A stretch of DNA of 64,000 nucleotides from Methanosarcina flavescens (GTDB lineage Archaea > Halobacteriota > Methanosarcinia > Methanosarcinales > Methanosarcinaceae), in assembly GCF_001304615.2 (NCBI RefSeq), contig NZ_CP032683.1, forward strand, positions 2,170,001-2,234,000. Reading direction: 5' to 3'. Of the stretch, positions 4,981 through 27,488 are shown piece after piece. The notes below the pieces were generated by a model that ran no database searches, had not been told where the DNA came from, and saw only the letters and a program-made list of their open reading frames with translations. The stretch's first letter is position 1, and the number at the start of each line of letters is the position of its first letter. The position numbers and the translations under genes were made by a program.

Positions 4981-6468
4981 GTGGCAAAAAATAATGCAGT
5001 TGCAGGATTTAATGCACTTAATGGTGTAGAATTAAACCTTTTTACTAATGACGAACTTAAGGCAATTCACTATGCAACCATGGAAGTTCTGATGAACCCA
5101 GGTGTTCAGGTTTCTGATCCCGAAGCAAGGCAGATCTTCAAAGAAAATGGCTGCGAAGTCGACGAGAAAACCAACGTTGTAAAAATCCCTGAATATCTTG
5201 TAAGAAAAGCTCTTCAGCTTGCGCCTTCCAGATTTGTCCTCTGGGGCCGCGATAAAAAGAACAATACTGTCCAGGAATGTGGTGGTAAAGTGCACTGGAC
5301 CTGTTTCGGTACCGGTGTCAAGGTCTGCAAATACCAGGACGGCAAGTATGTAACAGTTGACTCCGTTGAGCAGGACATTGCAGATATCGCAAAACTCTGC
5401 GACTGGGCAGAGAACATTGACTACTTCTCACTACCAGTTTCTGCAAGGGACGTTGCAGGCCAGGGTGCACAGGATGTCCACGAAACCCTCACACCACTTG
5501 CAAACACCTCTAAACACTATCATCACATCGACCCCGTCGGCGAAAACGTCGAATATTACTGGGACATTGTAAAAGCATACTATGGCGGTGACGAAGAAGA
5601 GGCAAGGAAAAAACCGATTTTCTCCATGCTGCTCTGTCCGACCAGCCCGCTCGAACTCAGTGTCAATGCCTGCCAGGTTATTATTAAAGGCGCCCGTCTC
5701 GGAATTCCGGTTAACGTTCTGAGTATGGCAATGTCAGGCGGATCTTCTCCTGTTTATCTTGCAGGCACTCTTGTAACCCACAATGCCGAAGTGCTTTCAG
5801 GAATTGTGCTTGCCCAGTTGACTGTTCCAGGAAGCAAAGTCTGGTATGGAAGTTCCACAACTACCTTTGACCTGAAAAAAGGAACTGCTCCTGTCGGATC
5901 TCCTGAACTCGGCTTGATAAGCGGCGCTGTCGCGAAACTTGCCCAGTTCTATGGCCTACCCTCCTTTGTGGCAGGTTCCTAGTCTGATGCGAAGATCCCG
6001 GACAACCAGGCAGGACACGAAAAAACCATAACCACCCTCCTTCCAGCCCTTGCAGGAGCAAACACTATCTACGGAGCCGGAATGCTTGAGCTTGGAATGA
6101 CCTTCTCAATGGAGCAGCTGGTAATTGACAATGATATTATCAGTATGGTCAAGAAGGCTATGCAAGGAATTCCTGTCTCAGAAGAAACGTTGTCAGTGGA
6201 ATCCATCCAGAAAGTAGGCATCGGAAACAATTTCCTTGCCCTCAAACAGACCAGGCAGCTTATAGACTATCCTTCCAGCCCAATGCTCATTGACAGACGC
6301 ATGTATGGAGATTGGGCAGCAGCAGGCTCAAAAGATCTTGCAGCAGTTGCGCATGAAAAAGTAGAGGACATTCTTAAGAACCACCAGGTAAAACCAATTG
6401 ATGCAGATATCCTCAAGGATATGCAGGCTGTCGTGGACAGGGCTGATAAAGCCTTCAGAGGTATGTAA
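4981..6468 (+). CDS. mttB: trimethylamine methyltransferase MttB, pyrrolysine-containing
   Basis: MttB transfers a methyl group from trimethylamine to the Co(I) corrinoid of MttC, the entry step of TMA methanogenesis. The frame opens with GTG at 4981 after GGAGG and is interrupted by a single TAG at codon 334 (5980-5982), then continues in frame with [14 protein letters not shown] to the TAA at 6466-6468. Read through, the product is 495 residues, the exact family length, and the amber codon falls at the position of the catalytic pyrrolysine of M. barkeri MttB. Sequence on both sides of the TAG is equally conserved in character, so this is recoding and not decay. It lies 25 bases after mtbC and 25 before mttC, so the three genes are one operon. 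A standard gene caller will split it into a 333-codon gene and a 128-codon fragment starting at 6082. Confidence 0.97.
5980..5982 (+). other. in-frame amber codon read as pyrrolysine (Pyl334 of MttB)
   Basis: TAG inside mttB with uninterrupted coding on both sides. In MttB, Pyl is thought to bind and orient the methylamine for attack by Co(I). No equally close alternative stop follows, so termination here would yield a protein lacking its last third. Confidence 0.96.
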
Positions 6469-6493
6469 AGACAGGATATCAGGAGATCTAAAA

Positions 6494-7147
6494 ATGGCAA
6501 GCAAAGAAGAAATCATTGCAAAAGCAAAAGAAGCGATTACCGAGTTCGACGAGGAAATGGCGGCTGAAGTCGCAGAAGAAGCCCTTGCTGCAGGGATTGA
6601 TCCTGTAGAGCTTATTGAAAAAGGATATACTGCAGGCATGGAAGAAGTAGGGGAACAGTTCGAACAGGGATCTCTTTTCCTGCCACATGTGATTGCAGCC
6701 GCAGAGGCGATGAAAGCAGGAATAAATATCATTACACCGGAAATGGAGAAGCGTAAGTCCGAGACAAAGAACCTTGGAACTGTTGTTATCGGAACCATAG
6801 AAGGTGACATTCACTCCATTGGAAAGGACATCGTAGCCTCCATGCTCAACATTGCAGGTTTCAAAGTTGTGGATCTTGGAAGGGATGTCCCGATTAAGAC
6901 CTTCGTCGAAAAAGCAAAGGAGCTCAAACCCCAGGTTGTCGCATCCTCCGCACTTATGACAACCACAATGGTCAACCAGATCCAGATTGAAGAACAGCTG
7001 AAAGAAGCAGGCATCCGCGATCAGGTTAAAACCATGGTAGGAGGTGCTCCAGTTACCCAGGACTGGGCAGACAAGATCGGTGCAGACATCTACGGTGAAA
7101 GCGCTAACGATGCAGTCGCTAAGGTAAAAGCAGCCCTGAAGGTCTAA
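6494..7147 (+). CDS. mttC: trimethylamine corrinoid protein MttC
   Basis: A 217-residue corrinoid protein, the methyl acceptor of MttB. The helical cap (residues about 1-88, with PVELIEKGYTAGMEEVGEQF) precedes the B12 domain carrying D-x-H-x-x-G in EGDIHSIGKDIV and GG in MVGGAPVTQDWAD; His of DIHSIG is the expected lower cobalt ligand. It is clearly paralogous to MtbC at 4314 (same cap, same motifs) but differs throughout, as expected for DMA versus TMA specificity. ATG at 6494 follows AGGAGAT at good spacing, 25 bases after the mttB stop. A hairpin (7157-7218) follows directly, and beyond it only a remnant of the permease gene remains. Confidence 0.94.
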   Translation: MASKEEIIAKAKEAITEFDEEMAAEVAEEALAAGIDPVELIEKGYTAGMEEVGEQFEQGSLFLPHVIAAAEAMKAGINIITPEMEKRKSETKNLGTVVIGTIEGDIHSIGKDIVASMLNIAGFKVVDLGRDVPIKTFVEKAKELKPQVVASSALMTTTMVNQIQIEEQLKEAGIRDQVKTMVGGAPVTQDWADKIGADIYGESANDAVAKVKAALKV

Positions 7148-7156
7148 TAATCAAAA

Positions 7157-7218
7157 GAGCAGGCAGTTCCGGGAATTTGTGGTAGGTTATATAGACCCGG
7201 TTCCCGGCACACCTGCTC
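7157..7218 (+). terminator. two-part hairpin downstream of mttC
   Basis: GAGCAGG (7157-7163) pairs with CCTGCTC (7212-7218), and inside it CCGGGAA (7169-7175) pairs with TTCCCGG (7201-7207), giving a long GC-rich stem in an AT-rich spacer. No T-run follows, so it is as likely a 3'-end protector or processing element that lowers expression of the following permease gene as a terminator. Confidence 0.6.
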
Positions 7219-7266
7219 AATAGCTCTGATAAAAGAAGGAGTGAGCACGGATCGGAAGACTTTGAA

Positions 7267-7371
7267 ATGCATGAAAGTAAAAGGAAAATCAGTAAAGGGT
7301 ATATGTGTATCCTCTTTTGTGCGATATTCTGGGCATCTGGTATTTGCCTGTCACTGTTGTCTGGGTACTGA
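7267..7371 (+). pseudogene. remnant of the methylamine permease gene mttP
   Basis: A 34-codon frame from ATG 7267 to TGA 7369-7371 reads MHESKRKISKGYMCILFCAI and continues with FWASGICLSLLSGY. This looks like the N-terminus and first membrane helix of an EamA-type permease, the family of MttP, in the position mttP occupies after mttC in other Methanosarcina. A full permease should have about 300-350 residues; nothing resembling the remaining helices follows before the MITE at 7526. The gene therefore appears truncated by deletion. Transport of trimethylamine would need another copy elsewhere in the genome. The identification rests on position and a short match in character, so confidence is moderate. 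Confidence 0.55.
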
Positions 7372-22581: not shown

Positions 22582-23589
22582 GGCTCTGTAGAAATCCTCT
22601 AAATTCTGTTTTTACCCAAAAATTATAAAAATAAAATTGTAAAAATGCTCCTTAATTTTTTTGTCCCCACAAAAAACAAAGGAGCAATTGCTATTGTCAT
22701 CAAATAAGTATATTAAATTTATTGATCTCAGTCTTAAAACGGTTCAGTCTTCCAGACTGAACCTTTACTCCTGCAAATATTCCAAACGTGTTTATACTCA
22801 ACATCAGCTTCTTGTTCTTGTTTTATTGAAGGAGTATATAAGTACAGACTACCGTGACTTTGTAGAACTTGTTGACCTCATGAACAATATAAAGGAAAAA
22901 CTTGACCTTGATAAGGTTCCTCATTACACTACTCTTCAAAAGTTTGTGTCCAGAATTCCCTCTTCATTGTTTAACCTAATTTTGTCAAAAACTCTAAAAC
23001 TATTTTACTCACATGGAGAAAAAGTTCTCATTACGGCAATTGATGCAACAGGATTTACGAGTTCTTATGCAAGTCATTATTATTCTAAGAGAACAGGGAA
23101 GCTCCGAAGGAGCTTCCTTAAAACTTCAATATCAGTAGACACTATTAAAAAAGTAATATTAGGATGGAAAATTAGCCAAAAAACAGATCATGATGTCAAG
23201 CATGCAAAGACTCTGATAAGACAATCAAACAAGTCAAGAAAGTCTCAATGTTATGTGATGGATAAAGGATATGATTCCGAAGAAATTCATACTCTAATAA
23301 GAGAAGAGATAAAAGCAGATTCAATAGTACCTTTGAGAGAAAGAAAAAGAAAGAGAATAAACGGAAAATATAGAAAACAATTAAACAAAGACTTTGATAA
23401 GATCAAATACAATAGAAGGAATATAGTAGAGACAATAATATCTGTTGTAAAAAGAAAATTTGGAGAAACATTAAGAGCAAGAAAGGTTAGAAATCAAGTA
23501 AAAGAAGTAAAAGTTAAACTAATAGTCTATAATATAAACAAAAAAGTAATACAATTATTATGGATTAAATTAAGGATTTCTACAGAGCC
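22582..23589 (+). mobile_element. IS element copy 1 (1008 bp, IS5-like, 8-bp target duplication)
   Basis: Ends are GGCTCTGTAGAAATCCT and AGGATTTCTACAGAGCC, a perfect 17-bp inverted pair. The flanking octamer CTATATTT is at 22574-22581 and 23590-23597. A second, almost identical copy is at 44481-45486 with its own duplication AGTTTTTT. The near identity of the two copies shows recent activity. An 8-bp duplication and the transposase type fit the ISH1-like branch of the IS5 family, by general knowledge. Confidence 0.92.
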
Positions 23590-23623
23590 CTATATTTGGC
23601 TCCGTAGAAATCCTCTTAAATAG
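22661..23623 (+). CDS. DDE transposase of IS copy 1, N-terminus frameshifted
   Basis: A DDE transposase of about 320 residues: AIDATGF (first Asp), [10 protein letters not shown] (second Asp, D-x-G-Y-D), and [18 protein letters not shown] (the Y/R-x3-E region). The natural start, seen in copy 2, is the ATG at 22645 ([10 protein letters not shown]). Here a T-run between 22656 and 22662 has one extra base, so that ATG is out of phase; the frame from TTG 22661 ([11 protein letters not shown]) is what remains. The gene has no stop inside the IS: translation leaves through the right end, the duplicated octamer and into the neighbouring MITE, adding [11 protein letters not shown] before a TAG. Activity of this copy is uncertain because of the start. 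Confidence 0.9.
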
Positions 23624-23742: not shown

Positions 23743-24561
23743 TTACCTGAGAGTTAGTCCCTCAAGAGCCAGTGTATACTCTTTATTCGTTTCACTGTAG
23801 CTCAAGGAGTAACTTGTGGGATAATAGGAACTTGTCGGATAACATTTCGGAAGCTTGAGTTCTTTTGTTACCTCTGGTTTTGTCTCAAGGAAAGCTATTG
23901 TAACCATAGGTTCGACAAAAACCATTTCCCCGTTATAAAACCCATAAATAAAAGTCTCATTAAAAGGCTGTCCGTTAAACTCAGGAGCTTTCGGGTCTAT
24001 CCAGTGTGCTCCCATTCTGGGCACTCCTCCTGGCGTGGGAACATATCCCTCCGGAATATATTCTGATGCCGGCATTTTTGATAAGTTCTTACAATCTTCC
24101 CCGGTCGCTGTGATCTTATCTCTTTCCTCAGGGGTTATCATGTAAAAATGAACATCAAAGTGCGGCTTATCATAAATTCCCTGAGGTTCATGTCCATGAG
24201 GATTCCAGTCAATCCCAATGTGGTTATAAGCTGTGGAAGCAGCTTCTTCCGGCAGAGAAAGTGTGTACTCCACAGTTCTTCCTTCAGGATGTCCTTCCAG
24301 AGCTGATTCTGTAAAGTTTACTCCTATTGACGAGGGATTTCCTTCATTGTCAAGCTTAACCCAGGAATAAGCAACTCCGCTGCCCAGGGTTTTACTTTCC
24401 CCCTCAAACATTCCCATTTGAGGTGGCTTAACAAAGCATTTTTCTTTTTGTTGTTGGGTCTCCGCCATTGCACAGCCGGAAAAGAGAACAGCAACTACCG
24501 TGAGTATACAGAAATAACATGTCAATTTTCTTCCCTTCGTATTACTCCCCCCACATAGCAT
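23743..24561 (-). CDS. secreted lipoprotein, probably DUF5602-type
   Basis: A protein of up to 272 residues with an N-terminal signal ending in a lipobox (VVAVLFSGCAMA, Cys about residue 30), so it is exported and probably lipid-anchored. The mature part includes DWNPHGHEP and KPHFDVHFYMITPEERD, a His-rich metal-binding-looking region seen in DUF5602/TTHB210-like proteins. No enzymatic function is known. Its 3' end lies 25 bases from the MITE. The precise start is unsure: ATG 24559-24561 opens the frame, but a strong GGGGGGAG lies just inside it. It is on the same strand as, and 36 bases after, the iscU-like gene, so it may be the last gene of that operon. Confidence 0.65.
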   Translation of the reverse strand: MLCGGSNTKGRKLTCYFCILTVVAVLFSGCAMAETQQQKEKCFVKPPQMGMFEGESKTLGSGVAYSWVKLDNEGNPSSIGVNFTESALEGHPEGRTVEYTLSLPEEAASTAYNHIGIDWNPHGHEPQGIYDKPHFDVHFYMITPEERDKITATGEDCKNLSKMPASEYIPEGYVPTPGGVPRMGAHWIDPKAPEFNGQPFNETFIYGFYNGEMVFVEPMVTIAFLETKPEVTKELKLPKCYPTSSYYPTSYSLSYSETNKEYTLALEGLTLR

Positions 24562-24597: not shown

Positions 24598-25239
24598 TCA
24601 CGCTGTAAACACCACATCAACCTTTTCTACATCCCACAGAGACCCAAGTTTTTCTACAATATCCTCTTTTATCGCCGGAGCAAACTGGTGGTTTGCAGGC
24701 AGGTCTACTACCACTCTTACCGCTCCATCTTCAACGCTAATTTTAAGGATCAGGTTTGTGCGGATGACGTCAAGCCCTGTTAGAGGGTTCATTACGTGTT
24801 TGAGCCTCTTTTTTACAACTTCTTCAGTTGTAGGCTCTTTCTCGGTTATAAGTCCGTGTTTTTCCTCATAATCTTTGATTGCAGCGCGCAGGCCCTCAAC
24901 TGCGAGCACTGAACAGTGGGCTTTGACCGGAGGCAATCCTCCAAGTTCCTCCGCAGCCTGCTTCCATGTTATCTTTTTTGCTTCATCAAGGGTTTTTCCG
25001 CGTGCAAGGTCTGTTATGATCGAGGCTGTGGCAATATTTGAGGCACAGCCGTAAGATTCGAATTTTATATCTTCAATAACCTTGGTATCTGGATTGACCT
25101 TGATATAAACGGCAACCATGTCTCCGCAAGCCGGGCTTCCTTCAAGACCTTTTCCGTCAGGATTCTCCATCTTTCCTACATTATGCGGATTCTTGAAATG
25201 CTCCAGCACTTTTTGACTGTAAGGAAACTTCATTGTCAC
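24598..25239 (-). CDS. IscU/NifU N-domain scaffold fused to a MIP18 (DUF59) domain
   Basis: A 213-residue protein. Residues 1-130 are an IscU scaffold with all ligands: PACGD (Cys38, Asp40), SYGCA (Cys65) and AHCSVLA (Cys109). Residues about 142-213 (KRLKHVMNPLTGLDVIRTNL to WDVEKVDVVFTA) match the MIP18/DUF59 fold found in SufT and in ApbC-linked Fe-S carriers. Plain IscU is about 130 residues, so the fusion joins cluster assembly with a transfer module in one chain. It lies 69 bases after the IscS-like gene on the same strand. Assembly of 2Fe-2S or 4Fe-4S clusters in the cytoplasm is the expected role; the sulfur donor is the open question (see next gene). Confidence 0.88.
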   Translation of the reverse strand: MTMKFPYSQKVLEHFKNPHNVGKMENPDGKGLEGSPACGDMVAVYIKVNPDTKVIEDIKFESYGCASNIATASIITDLARGKTLDEAKKITWKQAAEELGGLPPVKAHCSVLAVEGLRAAIKDYEEKHGLITEKEPTTEEVVKKRLKHVMNPLTGLDVIRTNLILKISVEDGAVRVVVDLPANHQFAPAIKEDIVEKLGSLWDVEKVDVVFTA

Positions 25240-25307
25240 ACCTTTCTATAATCTTTCTCTGAGCTTCTATAATCTGCTTTCCCTTGTATTGCCTTTCAAT
25301 CTTGTTT

Positions 25308-26462
25308 TCATTTCCTCGCAAGTGGGCTTATCTCCCTGAGCCTTGCTACTATCTCACTCATTGCTTCAATTGCTGCATCAACGTCTTCCATGCGGTTGTA
25401 GCGCCCGAGGGTAAAACGTACCGAACCATGTGCTCTCTCATGGTCTCCTCCGATACCCCTGATTACATGGCTGGCTTCAAGGGAGCGGCTGAAACATGCA
25501 GAACCCGTGCTTACTGCAAACCCTCTCATGTCCATATGCAGAGTTACGGATTCGCCCTCAACATAATGAAAAGTCAGGTTTGCGTTCTGAGGCAGGCGCT
25601 CTTCCCGGCTTCCGTTCAGGGTAACATCAGGAATATCCGAGAGAGCTTTGTCAATAACCCGATCTCTCATGGCTTTGAGCCTTATGTTTTCCTCTTCGGT
25701 TACGAGCTCGACAGCTTTTGCAAAACCGACCGCAGACGGAATATCTTCCACCCCTGCCCTCAGGTTAAATTCCTGGAAACCCCCGTCCATGAACTTGGTT
25801 ATTGGGGTATCTTTCCGAATGTAAAGAGCGCCCACCCCCCTTGGGCCGTGAATAGTATGGGCAGACATGGTGATCAGGTCTACAGGTAGTTCCTTTACAC
25901 TCAGGGGAAGCCTGGTAAAGCTATGAGTGGCGTCTGTGTGCAGGAGCACATCTTTCTCTTCGCAAATCTCGGAGATAGCTTTCAAATCCTGCACTGTCCC
26001 TATTTCCTGGTTACCGTGCTGGATTGAAACAAGAACTGTCTCCTTTGTGATTGCGTTTCTCAGCCCCTCTAGATTCACAAATCCTTCCGCATTCACATCA
26101 AGGAAAGTTACGCTAAAACCCTGCCTCTCAAGAGCTTTTGCAGTATTCAGCACAGGAAAATCTTCTATTGTCGAGACAATAATATGCTTTCCTTTCTTTT
26201 CTTTAAGAGCCCAGGCAACTCCTTTAAGCGCGGTATTGCTTGACTCGGTGGATCCTGAAGTGAAAATAACCTCCTCCCAATTTGCAGCAATCTTTGAAGC
26301 AATGCTTCCCCGGGACTTTTCTAGTGCTTCTTTTGCATCAATACCCATAGAATAGCCAAATTCTGATGTAGCTACTGCATAAGTATCAAAAAAATAGGGT
26401 TTCATCGCTTCAAGTACCTGCTCATCCATCCTCGTGGATGTAGAGTTATCAAGGTAAATCAT
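25308..26462 (-). CDS. cysteine desulfurase (IscS/NifS) homolog lacking the PLP lysine
   Basis: A 384-residue fold-type I protein clearly of the IscS/NifS family: MIYLDNSTST opening, FTSGSTESSN, NQEIG, and the mobile loop with the persulfide Cys in STGSACFSRSLEASHV (Cys323). But the PLP Schiff-base lysine, always in S-A-H-K, is Thr: SAHTIHGPRGVGALY (Thr203). The His that stacks on PLP (E-H) is Asp in STIEDFPVL (Asp101), and the Gln of DATQS is His in DATHS (His180). The cofactor site is thus dismantled while the persulfide Cys and overall fold are kept. It cannot be an ordinary desulfurase; a sulfur-carrier or adaptor role between TusA/DsrE and IscU is my inference. ATG 26462 matches the family start; the longer frame from TTG 26489 is less likely. 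Confidence 0.9.
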   Translation of the reverse strand: MIYLDNSTSTRMDEQVLEAMKPYFFDTYAVATSEFGYSMGIDAKEALEKSRGSIASKIAANWEEVIFTSGSTESSNTALKGVAWALKEKKGKHIIVSTIEDFPVLNTAKALERQGFSVTFLDVNAEGFVNLEGLRNAITKETVLVSIQHGNQEIGTVQDLKAISEICEEKDVLLHTDATHSFTRLPLSVKELPVDLITMSAHTIHGPRGVGALYIRKDTPITKFMDGGFQEFNLRAGVEDIPSAVGFAKAVELVTEEENIRLKAMRDRVIDKALSDIPDVTLNGSREERLPQNANLTFHYVEGESVTLHMDMRGFAVSTGSACFSRSLEASHVIRGIGGDHERAHGSVRFTLGRYNRMEDVDAAIEAMSEIVARLREISPLARK

Positions 26463-26668
26463 ATTCTCAAATATTTTTCTCCCTCCCAAATTAGACTATA
26501 TAATTTTGATTTTATAGTTGAATCTCAGCTTTTTCAGTGAAACACAATATTCTCAATCCGAAAAATCCCGAAATAGTAGTTTAGTTGAACGCAAAGGTAT
26601 AAATCAGACCTAACATTGAGTGCATTCTTATTATCGCAGCAGTGACAATTTTGAAGCTTTTCTGAGCC

Positions 26669-27088
26669 TTATATAAAGAGAGTTACACTAGCGCTTTTTG
26701 CCTCCTGAATATACGAACCAACAGCCCCCCATTCATCTATCCATTCCGTCTGAAGTTCATCTTTACTTAAACCCATGATTTCCATGGTCATCTCGCACGC
26801 GATTATTTTTCCCCCAAGTTCCTTGAAATCGCTCATCAATCTCTCAAGTGAAGCTACATTGGCTTTGTCCATTCTTTGCTTGATCATCTGCCTGCCAAGC
26901 CCCATCATATTCATCTTGGAAAGCGGCCCCTTGTCAAGCTCTCCTTTCTTCAAGCGCATTAATCCCCAGAAAGTAAAGTATATAGAGGCCTCCATACCCA
27001 TTGCCAGGGCTCCGTTCGCAATTATAAGCGCACTGTATACTTTATCCATATCGCCACTGTGCAGAATAATGACCGCTTTTTCCCCCAT
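26669..27088 (-). CDS. DsrE2-like (DsrE/DsrF family) sulfur-carrier protein
   Basis: A 139-residue protein. VIILHSGDMDKVYSALIIANGA is the nucleotide-like opening strand-loop of the DsrE fold, and IIACEMTMEIMGLSKDEL carries the conserved Cys98 in the ACxxSMxxMG-type motif of DsrE2/peroxiredoxin-family (COG2210) proteins. Such proteins accept and pass on persulfide sulfur, typically from TusA. It is 18 bases after the tusA-like gene and about 200 bases before the iscS-like gene on the same strand, so it belongs to the sulfur-relay operon. A long hydrophobic patch (FWGLMRL) suggests it may oligomerise or contact membrane. Confidence 0.88.
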   Translation of the reverse strand: MGEKAVIILHSGDMDKVYSALIIANGALAMGMEASIYFTFWGLMRLKKGELDKGPLSKMNMMGLGRQMIKQRMDKANVASLERLMSDFKELGGKIIACEMTMEIMGLSKDELQTEWIDEWGAVGSYIQEAKSASVTLFI

Positions 27089-27106
27089 TTAGACTCCTCT
27101 TCCGGC

Positions 27107-27334
27107 TTATCTCCGGATCTTTATCTCCCACTCTTTCCCTCCTTCTTTATCTTCAATATCCAGCACTTCTAGCCCCATTGCCTCGCAGGCCATAGGAATT
27201 TCTTTTCTTGATGCTGGATGTGTCCCTTTTATAATAACAAGATCCCCTGGAGAAGCTTTCTTTAAGGCCTTCCTGCATTCTACCAGCGGAACCGGGCAGG
27301 TCTGCCCTCGAACATCGATTTCAACTTCTGTCAT
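27107..27334 (-). CDS. tusA: TusA-like sulfurtransferase
   Basis: A 75-residue TusA/SirA/YedF-fold protein. The signature CPVP is at Cys13 (VRGQTCPVPLVECRKAL), the persulfide-carrying cysteine. Length and beta-alpha-beta-alpha pattern are those of single-domain TusA. It is the first gene of the minus-strand operon tusA-dsrE-iscS-like-iscU-MIP18. In bacteria TusA takes sulfur from IscS; here the IscS partner lacks PLP, so sulfur may come from sulfide or another source, which is inference. ATG at 27332-27334 follows GGGGGGTAAG. Confidence 0.92.
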   Translation of the reverse strand: MTEVEIDVRGQTCPVPLVECRKALKKASPGDLVIIKGTHPASRKEIPMACEAMGLEVLDIEDKEGGKEWEIKIRR

Positions 27335-27488
27335 TATTCTTACCCCCCAAAGTAAGAGTAACGGTAGGATTCTGACAGCAATTCTGTCTGCTATCTTTCC
27401 TTAAAATTCACTATATTCCAAAAATTATATTATCGTTTCGCATTGAAAGTTCTATCTGGGAATTACCCCTATAATCCTGAACCATATT

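Follow-up and report, generated by a model that had tools for sequence, protein, structure and literature searches.

A conserved cassette of tusA, dsrE2, a lysine-less iscS and a MIP18-fused iscU in archaea and bacteria

Introduction

In Methanosarcina acetivorans the isc1 pair (MA0808/MA0807) encodes an IscS1 in which, according to excerpts of Deere et al. 2020 (PMC7585200), the residues that bind pyridoxal 5'-phosphate (PLP) are not conserved; the same excerpts report that the neighbours of isc1 are common to M. barkeri and M. mazei and that IscS1 was detected in the M. acetivorans proteome. They further state that the IscS of Archaeoglobus fulgidus, which has Asp in place of the PLP lysine, shows no desulfurase activity and ligates the IscU-bound cluster through a Cys, and that the factors steering sulfide to the iron-sulfur (Fe-S) machinery are unknown. 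The locus described here bears on this open question of cysteine-independent sulfur entry into the Fe-S clusters of anaerobes that live on sulfide. It is situated in a window of 64,000 nucleotides (the whole stretch analysed; contig NZ_CP032683.1, positions 2,170,001 to 2,234,000 of the forward strand) of Methanosarcina flavescens, a Methanosarcina-type genome of 3.28 Mb, and comprises four genes, tusA, dsrE2, iscS1 and iscU1.

Results

The four genes form one conserved unit

All four genes are encoded on the minus strand between positions 24598 and 27334 of the window (Table 1). The gaps amount to 18 bp between tusA and dsrE2, 194 or 206 bp between dsrE2 and iscS1, depending on the choice of the start codon, and 68-74 bp between iscS1 and iscU1, which confirmed the arrangement given in the initial annotation. 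Its proposal that the genes constitute a unit is now well supported, since order and spacing recur in two domains of life, gain and loss are joint and the distances among the four proteins are correlated. None of the cassette proteins reached the NCBIfam equivalog cut-offs for IscS, NifS, IscU, TusA and DsrE2, and they are therefore divergent members of their families.

Within the class Methanosarcinia, presence in 149 genomes was counted by comparing genome lists gene by gene. IscS1 and the fused IscU1 occurred in the same 70 genomes, 68 of which also had TusA and DsrE2 of the cassette type, and none of the four genes was found in the remaining 79. Identity among IscS1-type proteins was 66-96%, compared with at most 50% for other IscS. 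Since related genomes are non-independent samples, no probability was put on these counts. Of the two exceptions, genome G053 has IscS1 and IscU1 only, and in G105 the contig begins inside iscS1. The order tusA-dsrE2-iscS1-iscU1 with gaps of 8-60 bp was found in Methanohalophilus, Methanolobus and Methanomethylovorans, the dsrE2-iscS1 distance being wider in Methanosarcina. In Methanococcoides-type genomes both gene pairs are present and lie more than 100 kb apart, so that co-inheritance has outlasted the lost linkage. The idea of a comparable unit elsewhere in the phylum was rejected, since neither IscS nor IscU is encoded close to the next-best DsrE2 matches (G273, G170).

Scanning 84,980 species genomes with the fused IscU1 as query yielded 428 relatives, the best 80 of which were analysed, and led us to reject the idea that the cassette is an oddity of Methanosarcina only. 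Among these 80, 34 were outside Methanosarcinaceae; 31 of the 34 had all four genes and the other three were located at contig ends. The cassette was present in Methanofastidiosa, Theionarchaea, Thermoplasmata, Chloroflexota, Actinomycetota, Bacillota, Thermodesulfobacteriota, WOR-3 and others, with a typical intergenic distance of 10-60 bp, and in several Chloroflexota the gene order was iscS-iscU-tusA-dsrE2. Many of the loci outside Methanosarcinaceae stem from metagenome assemblies; cultured carriers include Acetobacterium paludosum and Parasporobacterium paucivorans. As an out-of-sample test, about 700 further genomes from two bacterial phyla were searched and 11 new matches were examined. 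A lysine-less IscS beside a fused IscU was seen in 11 of 11, TusA in 10 and DsrE2 in 8. The frequency of the cassette in the two phyla was 5/299 and 8/400, reference genomes counted, a rarity that is as expected for a patchy or transferred module. The distance matrices among the four proteins correlated with rho between 0.50 and 0.76 (0 of 500 permutations), to which shared species history contributes.

IscS1 lacks the PLP lysine and retains the Cys loop

The AlphaFold model of IscS1 showed a class V aminotransferase fold (pLDDT 89.7, TM 0.9 to IscS structures), with NCBIfam scores under the cut-off for both NifS (432.5 versus 530.75 bits) and IscS (381.1 versus 643.2 bits). In place of the canonical S-G/A-H-K, IscS1 carries S-A-H-T, the PLP lysine being replaced by Thr203 (residues are counted from the first ATG at 26462). 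Thr203, Asp101 and Cys323 are invariant in the 44 orthologues of the family. In the 80 named loci of the wider scan, residue 203 was never Lys at the 78 loci where it was resolved (Thr in 73, Leu in 3 and Ala in 2), and Asp101 was found in 77/77, His180 in 78/78 and Cys323 in 80/80 resolved positions; all 11 further bacterial loci had Thr, Leu or Val at position 203. Canonical IscS from the same genomes have His, Gln, Lys, Thr and Cys at positions 101, 180, 203, 238 and 323, respectively. Thr238 is mostly Val, Leu or Ile in the lysine-less proteins, in which Asn151, Asp177, Arg235 and Arg354 are invariant. The loop spanning residues 317-334, with the catalytic-Cys motif STGSACFS, is conserved to 99% among the family orthologues, compared with 80% across the whole protein.

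Judged from these residues, a loss of desulfurase chemistry in IscS1 is well supported. The initial description of the protein as "PLP-less" was borne out as far as the lysine is concerned, which is Thr in 44/44 orthologues; the absence of bound PLP is a prediction, and "lysine-less" is the more apt label. Because the residues are conserved and a canonical iscS-iscU pair coexists in the M. flavescens genome, IscS1 is a conserved protein of inactive type that is maintained alongside active desulfurases and not a product of decay. In four genomes, the completeness of which was not given, no strong Aminotran_5 protein other than IscS1 was found.

The 51 lysine-less sequences in a tree of 66 IscS proteins formed a single clade (support 100) whose stem measured 1.0 change per site. 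Across this clade the Lys is replaced by Thr, Ala, Leu or Val, the PLP-stacking His by Asp and the Gln by His. Among solved structures, the A. fulgidus IscS-IscU pair is the closest to IscS1 and IscU1. A. fulgidus IscS branched beside the lysine-less clade with support 92, but its long branch was flagged as unreliable, and the tree would be compatible with both a single and a double loss of the lysine when this protein is included. Residues 28-40 of IscS1 (YAVATSEFGYSMG, approximately 26343-26381) vary little within the lysine-less clade and differ from the corresponding region of canonical IscS; AlphaFold confidence was low there and in the Cys loop.

IscU1 and the two sulfur carriers

In IscU1 the scaffold site is complete, with Cys38, Asp40, Cys65, Cys109 and the LPPVK motif all present, and the protein resembles IscU structures more than SufU structures. 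The three cysteines are conserved in 46/46 orthologues; depending on the start codon, they are numbered 38/65/109 or 36/63/107, and the ATG at 25233 (conserved MKFPYS) is the likelier start over the GTG at 25239. The C-terminal part matched PF01883 with 52.1 bits (cut-off 23.5) at residues 140-209 and was modelled as a separately folded domain of the MIP18 type. Typical DUF59 proteins carry a conserved cysteine motif; in the orthologue alignment, no cysteine was present within residues 130-213 of IscU1.

The remaining cysteines named in the initial annotation were likewise confirmed. TusA has the CPxP motif and the PF01206 domain, and its Cys13 is invariant (44/44 orthologues), as is Cys98 of DsrE2 (44/44). 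DsrE2, the single match of its kind in the M. flavescens genome, scored 64.1 bits against the NCBIfam DsrE2 sulfur carrier model NF047629, whose cut-off is 210, and was recognised by the Pfam DrsE_2 model. TusA is the steadier partner of the two, as the Chloroflexota loci L202 and L203 have TusA and no DsrE2 within several kb. The loci L075 and L090 of Methanosarcina sp. Ant1 are rearranged and contain two tusA genes, one 5' of iscS1 and one together with dsrE2 at a distance of 1.9 kb.

Expression signals and neighbouring genes

Upstream of tusA a 29-base element is conserved in 14 Methanosarcina-type loci (Table 1) and may represent a promoter. In the locus alignment no second conserved promoter was found in the dsrE2-iscS1 spacer, the Shine-Dalgarno sequence and start region alone being conserved there. 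Because the element 5' of tusA is conserved and has no counterpart before iscS1, the alignment favours a single putative promoter serving all four genes. A regulon controlled through this element was rejected, as it occurs only once in the genome at up to 3 mismatches.

In Methanosarcina and close relatives, all 31 distinct loci have ATA at the start position of iscS1 (26474-26472 of the window, minus strand), with a Shine-Dalgarno sequence 4-8 nt upstream; other genera have ATG or GTG there. In L021 and L023 the ATA directly follows a stop codon, and the next ATG, GTG or TTG comes only after the conserved YLDN. The simplest reading of these codons is translation of iscS1 from AUA, upstream of the first ATG, and such an initiation may lower or regulate the synthesis of IscS1.

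Table 1. Position and assignment of the cassette genes and associated elements in the window
Feature	Coordinates	Strand	Description	Basis
tusA	27107..27334	-	TusA-family sulfur carrier, 75 aa, Cys13 in CPVP	Pfam PF01206, 1.9e-20
dsrE2	26669..27088	-	DsrE2-family protein, 139 aa, single invariant Cys98	Pfam DrsE_2 PF13686, 4.4e-36
iscS1	25308..26474	-	Lysine-less IscS/NifS homologue; Thr203, Asp101, His180, Cys323 loop intact	Aminotran_5 PF00266, 4e-68
iscU1	24598..25239	-	NifU_N scaffold domain (~7-128) and FeS_assembly_P/MIP18 domain (~140-209)	PF01592, 1.7e-43; PF01883, 8e-14
Promoter-like element 5' of tusA (CGAAACGATAATATAATTTTTGGAATATA)	27412..27440	-		Conservation in 14 Methanosarcina-type loci
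dsrE2-iscS1 spacer	26475..26668	-	~150-480 bp in Methanosarcina versus 10-60 bp in most other taxa	

The genes flanking the cassette vary among taxa; constant additional partner genes were rejected on this ground, and only small sets recur. Downstream of iscU1, at a distance of 36 bp, the window contains a gene for a TTHB210-like probable lipoprotein (23743-24561, minus strand), which is found in many Methanosarcina loci (gap 5-90 bp); in other genera, no such neighbour of the cluster was found. An IS5-family transposase gene (22661-23623, plus strand) lies close downstream of the cluster. By eye, glutaredoxin-like together with ferredoxin-thioredoxin-reductase-like or rubredoxin-like neighbours were seen in some Chloroflexota and WOR-3 (L147 at 6561-7348, L140 at 6372-7164, L153 and L158), where they are possible reductants. 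Inspection by eye of the Chloroflexota loci L134 and L135 revealed a second, unfused IscU-like gene and a ferritin-like gene with the cassette, as well as a serine acetyltransferase-like protein with a C-terminal MIP18-like stretch.

Discussion

A single origin in two domains argues for a function of the cassette beyond those of the ordinary ISC and SUF systems. The reading we prefer, with evenly balanced confidence, is that of a desulfurase-independent Fe-S cluster assembly module of anaerobes, in which sulfur would be passed via TusA/DsrE2 to IscS1 and from there to IscU1. IscS1 would be a former cysteine desulfurase which, with the PLP lysine and three further residues of the PLP site gone, could no longer obtain sulfur from cysteine. 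TusA, aided by DsrE2, would take up sulfur in the form of sulfide, polysulfide or another persulfide donor and hand it to Cys323 of IscS1, that is, in the direction opposite to that in E. coli; if IscS1 is inactive as a desulfurase, TusA would have to be the donor and IscS1 the acceptor. Since the Cys loop is conserved and the IscU ligand set intact, the mobile loop with Cys323 could serve as persulfide carrier or as cluster ligand toward IscU1, and IscS1 would thereby deliver sulfur to the site formed by Cys38, Asp40, Cys65 and Cys109. By analogy, the fused MIP18 domain may assist in the hand-over of the cluster to apoproteins. We infer this role of the MIP18 domain, as well as the contacts between the proteins, the direction of the sulfur flow and its source.

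The linear relay from TusA to DsrE2, the IscS-like protein and IscU that was initially suggested was not established in this order: TusA is steadier than DsrE2 (L202, L203), TusA contacts IscS in E. coli (title of the crystal structure 3LVJ) and DsrE2B of Metallosphaera cuprina was inert toward the sulfur compounds tested. Because DsrE2 is sometimes absent where TusA remains, we place it upstream of TusA or as an aid to it, and the order DsrE2, TusA, IscS1, IscU1 is the likelier one.

Several observations weigh against the preferred reading. M. cuprina DsrE2B did not react with any sulfur compound tested, and TusA and DsrE3A of this organism accepted thiosulfate from tetrathionate and did not react with sulfide or polysulfide (PMC4175335). 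M. acetivorans IscS1 was reported, in the excerpts of PMC7585200, to form inclusion bodies in E. coli. TusA could also be loaded by the canonical desulfurases of the genome. Finally, neither carrier is a strict requirement: a metagenome-assembled genome of 99% completeness (G053) has only IscS1 and IscU1, with unrelated genes upstream, and in the Chloroflexota locus L208 neither TusA nor DsrE2 is nearby. The latter two cases would be explained by a module of the A. fulgidus type without relay, in which IscS1-IscU1 uses free sulfide, Cys323 is only a ligand or organiser and TusA/DsrE2 have an adjacent job, such as cysteine reduction, polysulfide buffering or other thiolation. This explanation agrees with the nearest solved relative, A. 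fulgidus IscS (4EB5, 4HVK), which supplies a Cys ligand and not sulfur. A loose association, however, poorly explains why TusA/DsrE2 and IscS1-IscU1 are co-inherited across phyla and in almost every genome; we regard a module without relay as doubtful, though worth serious consideration.

TusA and DsrE homologues act elsewhere in tRNA 2-thiouridylation and sulfur oxidation, and the cassette might accordingly traffic sulfur for purposes other than chiefly Fe-S assembly, with IscU1 as a SufU-like sulfurtransferase and the persulfide destined for tRNA thiolation or a thio-cofactor. The full ligand set of IscU1, its closer likeness to IscU than to SufU structures and the fused FeS_assembly_P domain, which suggests Fe-S work, render this unlikely. 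Even less probable is a slow or altered lyase activity of IscS1 with PLP bound non-covalently or via another residue: the IscS fold and the invariant Asn151, Asp177, Arg235 and Arg354 are retained, and PDB entry 4HVK labels A. fulgidus IscS an "unusual L-cysteine desulfurase", but four PLP-contact positions are altered jointly and are (nearly) fixed across phyla, with Lys203 changed to Thr, Ala, Leu or Val, His101 to Asp, Gln180 to His and Thr238 mostly to Val, Leu or Ile. The wide dsrE2-iscS1 gap in Methanosarcina might point to chance neighbours or decaying genes; this explanation, to which we attach practically no weight, is already refuted by the conserved order and residues and by co-inheritance and recurrence in two domains. 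Returning to the module fed by TusA and DsrE2, we tentatively propose, as a possibility that we hold less firmly than the module itself, that the old PLP pocket was rebuilt (Asp101 and His180, both nearly invariant, and mostly Thr203) for a new ligand such as ferrous iron or a persulfide donor; IscS1 would then receive its sulfur from TusA/DsrE2 and assist cluster assembly on IscU1-MIP18 in a distinct, cysteine-independent Fe-S system of archaea and bacteria.

The cassette provides a genetically testable candidate for cysteine-independent sulfur entry, in which a lysine-less IscS is combined with two sulfur carriers and with a scaffold that bears a possible delivery domain. It is present in methanogens that are amenable to genetics and, among cultured bacteria, in Acetobacterium for example. 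No description of the four-gene unit was found in the literature on TusA, DsrE, IscS and IscU jointly, of which coverage was partial, and the IscS-IscU half is already known. The initial view of an unusual combination was therefore half right, given that the cassette recurs and that its IscS1-IscU1 half had been noted in M. acetivorans. The isc1 genes of this organism are orthologous to iscS1-iscU1 and the loss of the lysine has been reported for them; their neighbours are given as genes of unknown function, and the excerpts of Deere et al. name neither TusA/DsrE2 nor the MIP18 fusion and nothing outside Methanosarcina. A. fulgidus IscS2-IscU (4EB5, 4EB7, 4HVK, 4R5F) is likewise a pair with a lysine-less IscS (Asp). 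Its IscU, however, is an unfused protein of 153 aa in 4EB5, and its IscS, with about 42-43% identity to IscS1, has kept the His at the position of Asp101. The MIS (MisS-MisU) and SMS (SmsB-SmsC) systems also accomplish minimal Fe-S assembly in anaerobes, and SMS can use sulfide (PMC12192291, PMC12442378). As far as the excerpts of these papers go, SMS works without IscS/IscU, unlike the cassette, and MisS is an active cysteine desulfurase, whereas IscS1 is predicted from its residues to be inactive. In the E. coli IscS-TusA and IscS-IscU complexes (3LVJ, 3LVL) the same families are in contact, but there TusA is loaded by an IscS with desulfurase activity, a reaction that should be impossible for IscS1. 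TusA adjoins a DsrE-type protein in the dsrE-tusA clusters of sulfur oxidisers such as M. cuprina, as it does in the cassette; those clusters are tied to Hdr-like complexes and dihydrolipoamide dehydrogenase and not to IscS-IscU (PMC4175335). Among these systems, the cassette represents an ISC variant conserved across two domains, the sulfur of which would enter through TusA and DsrE2.

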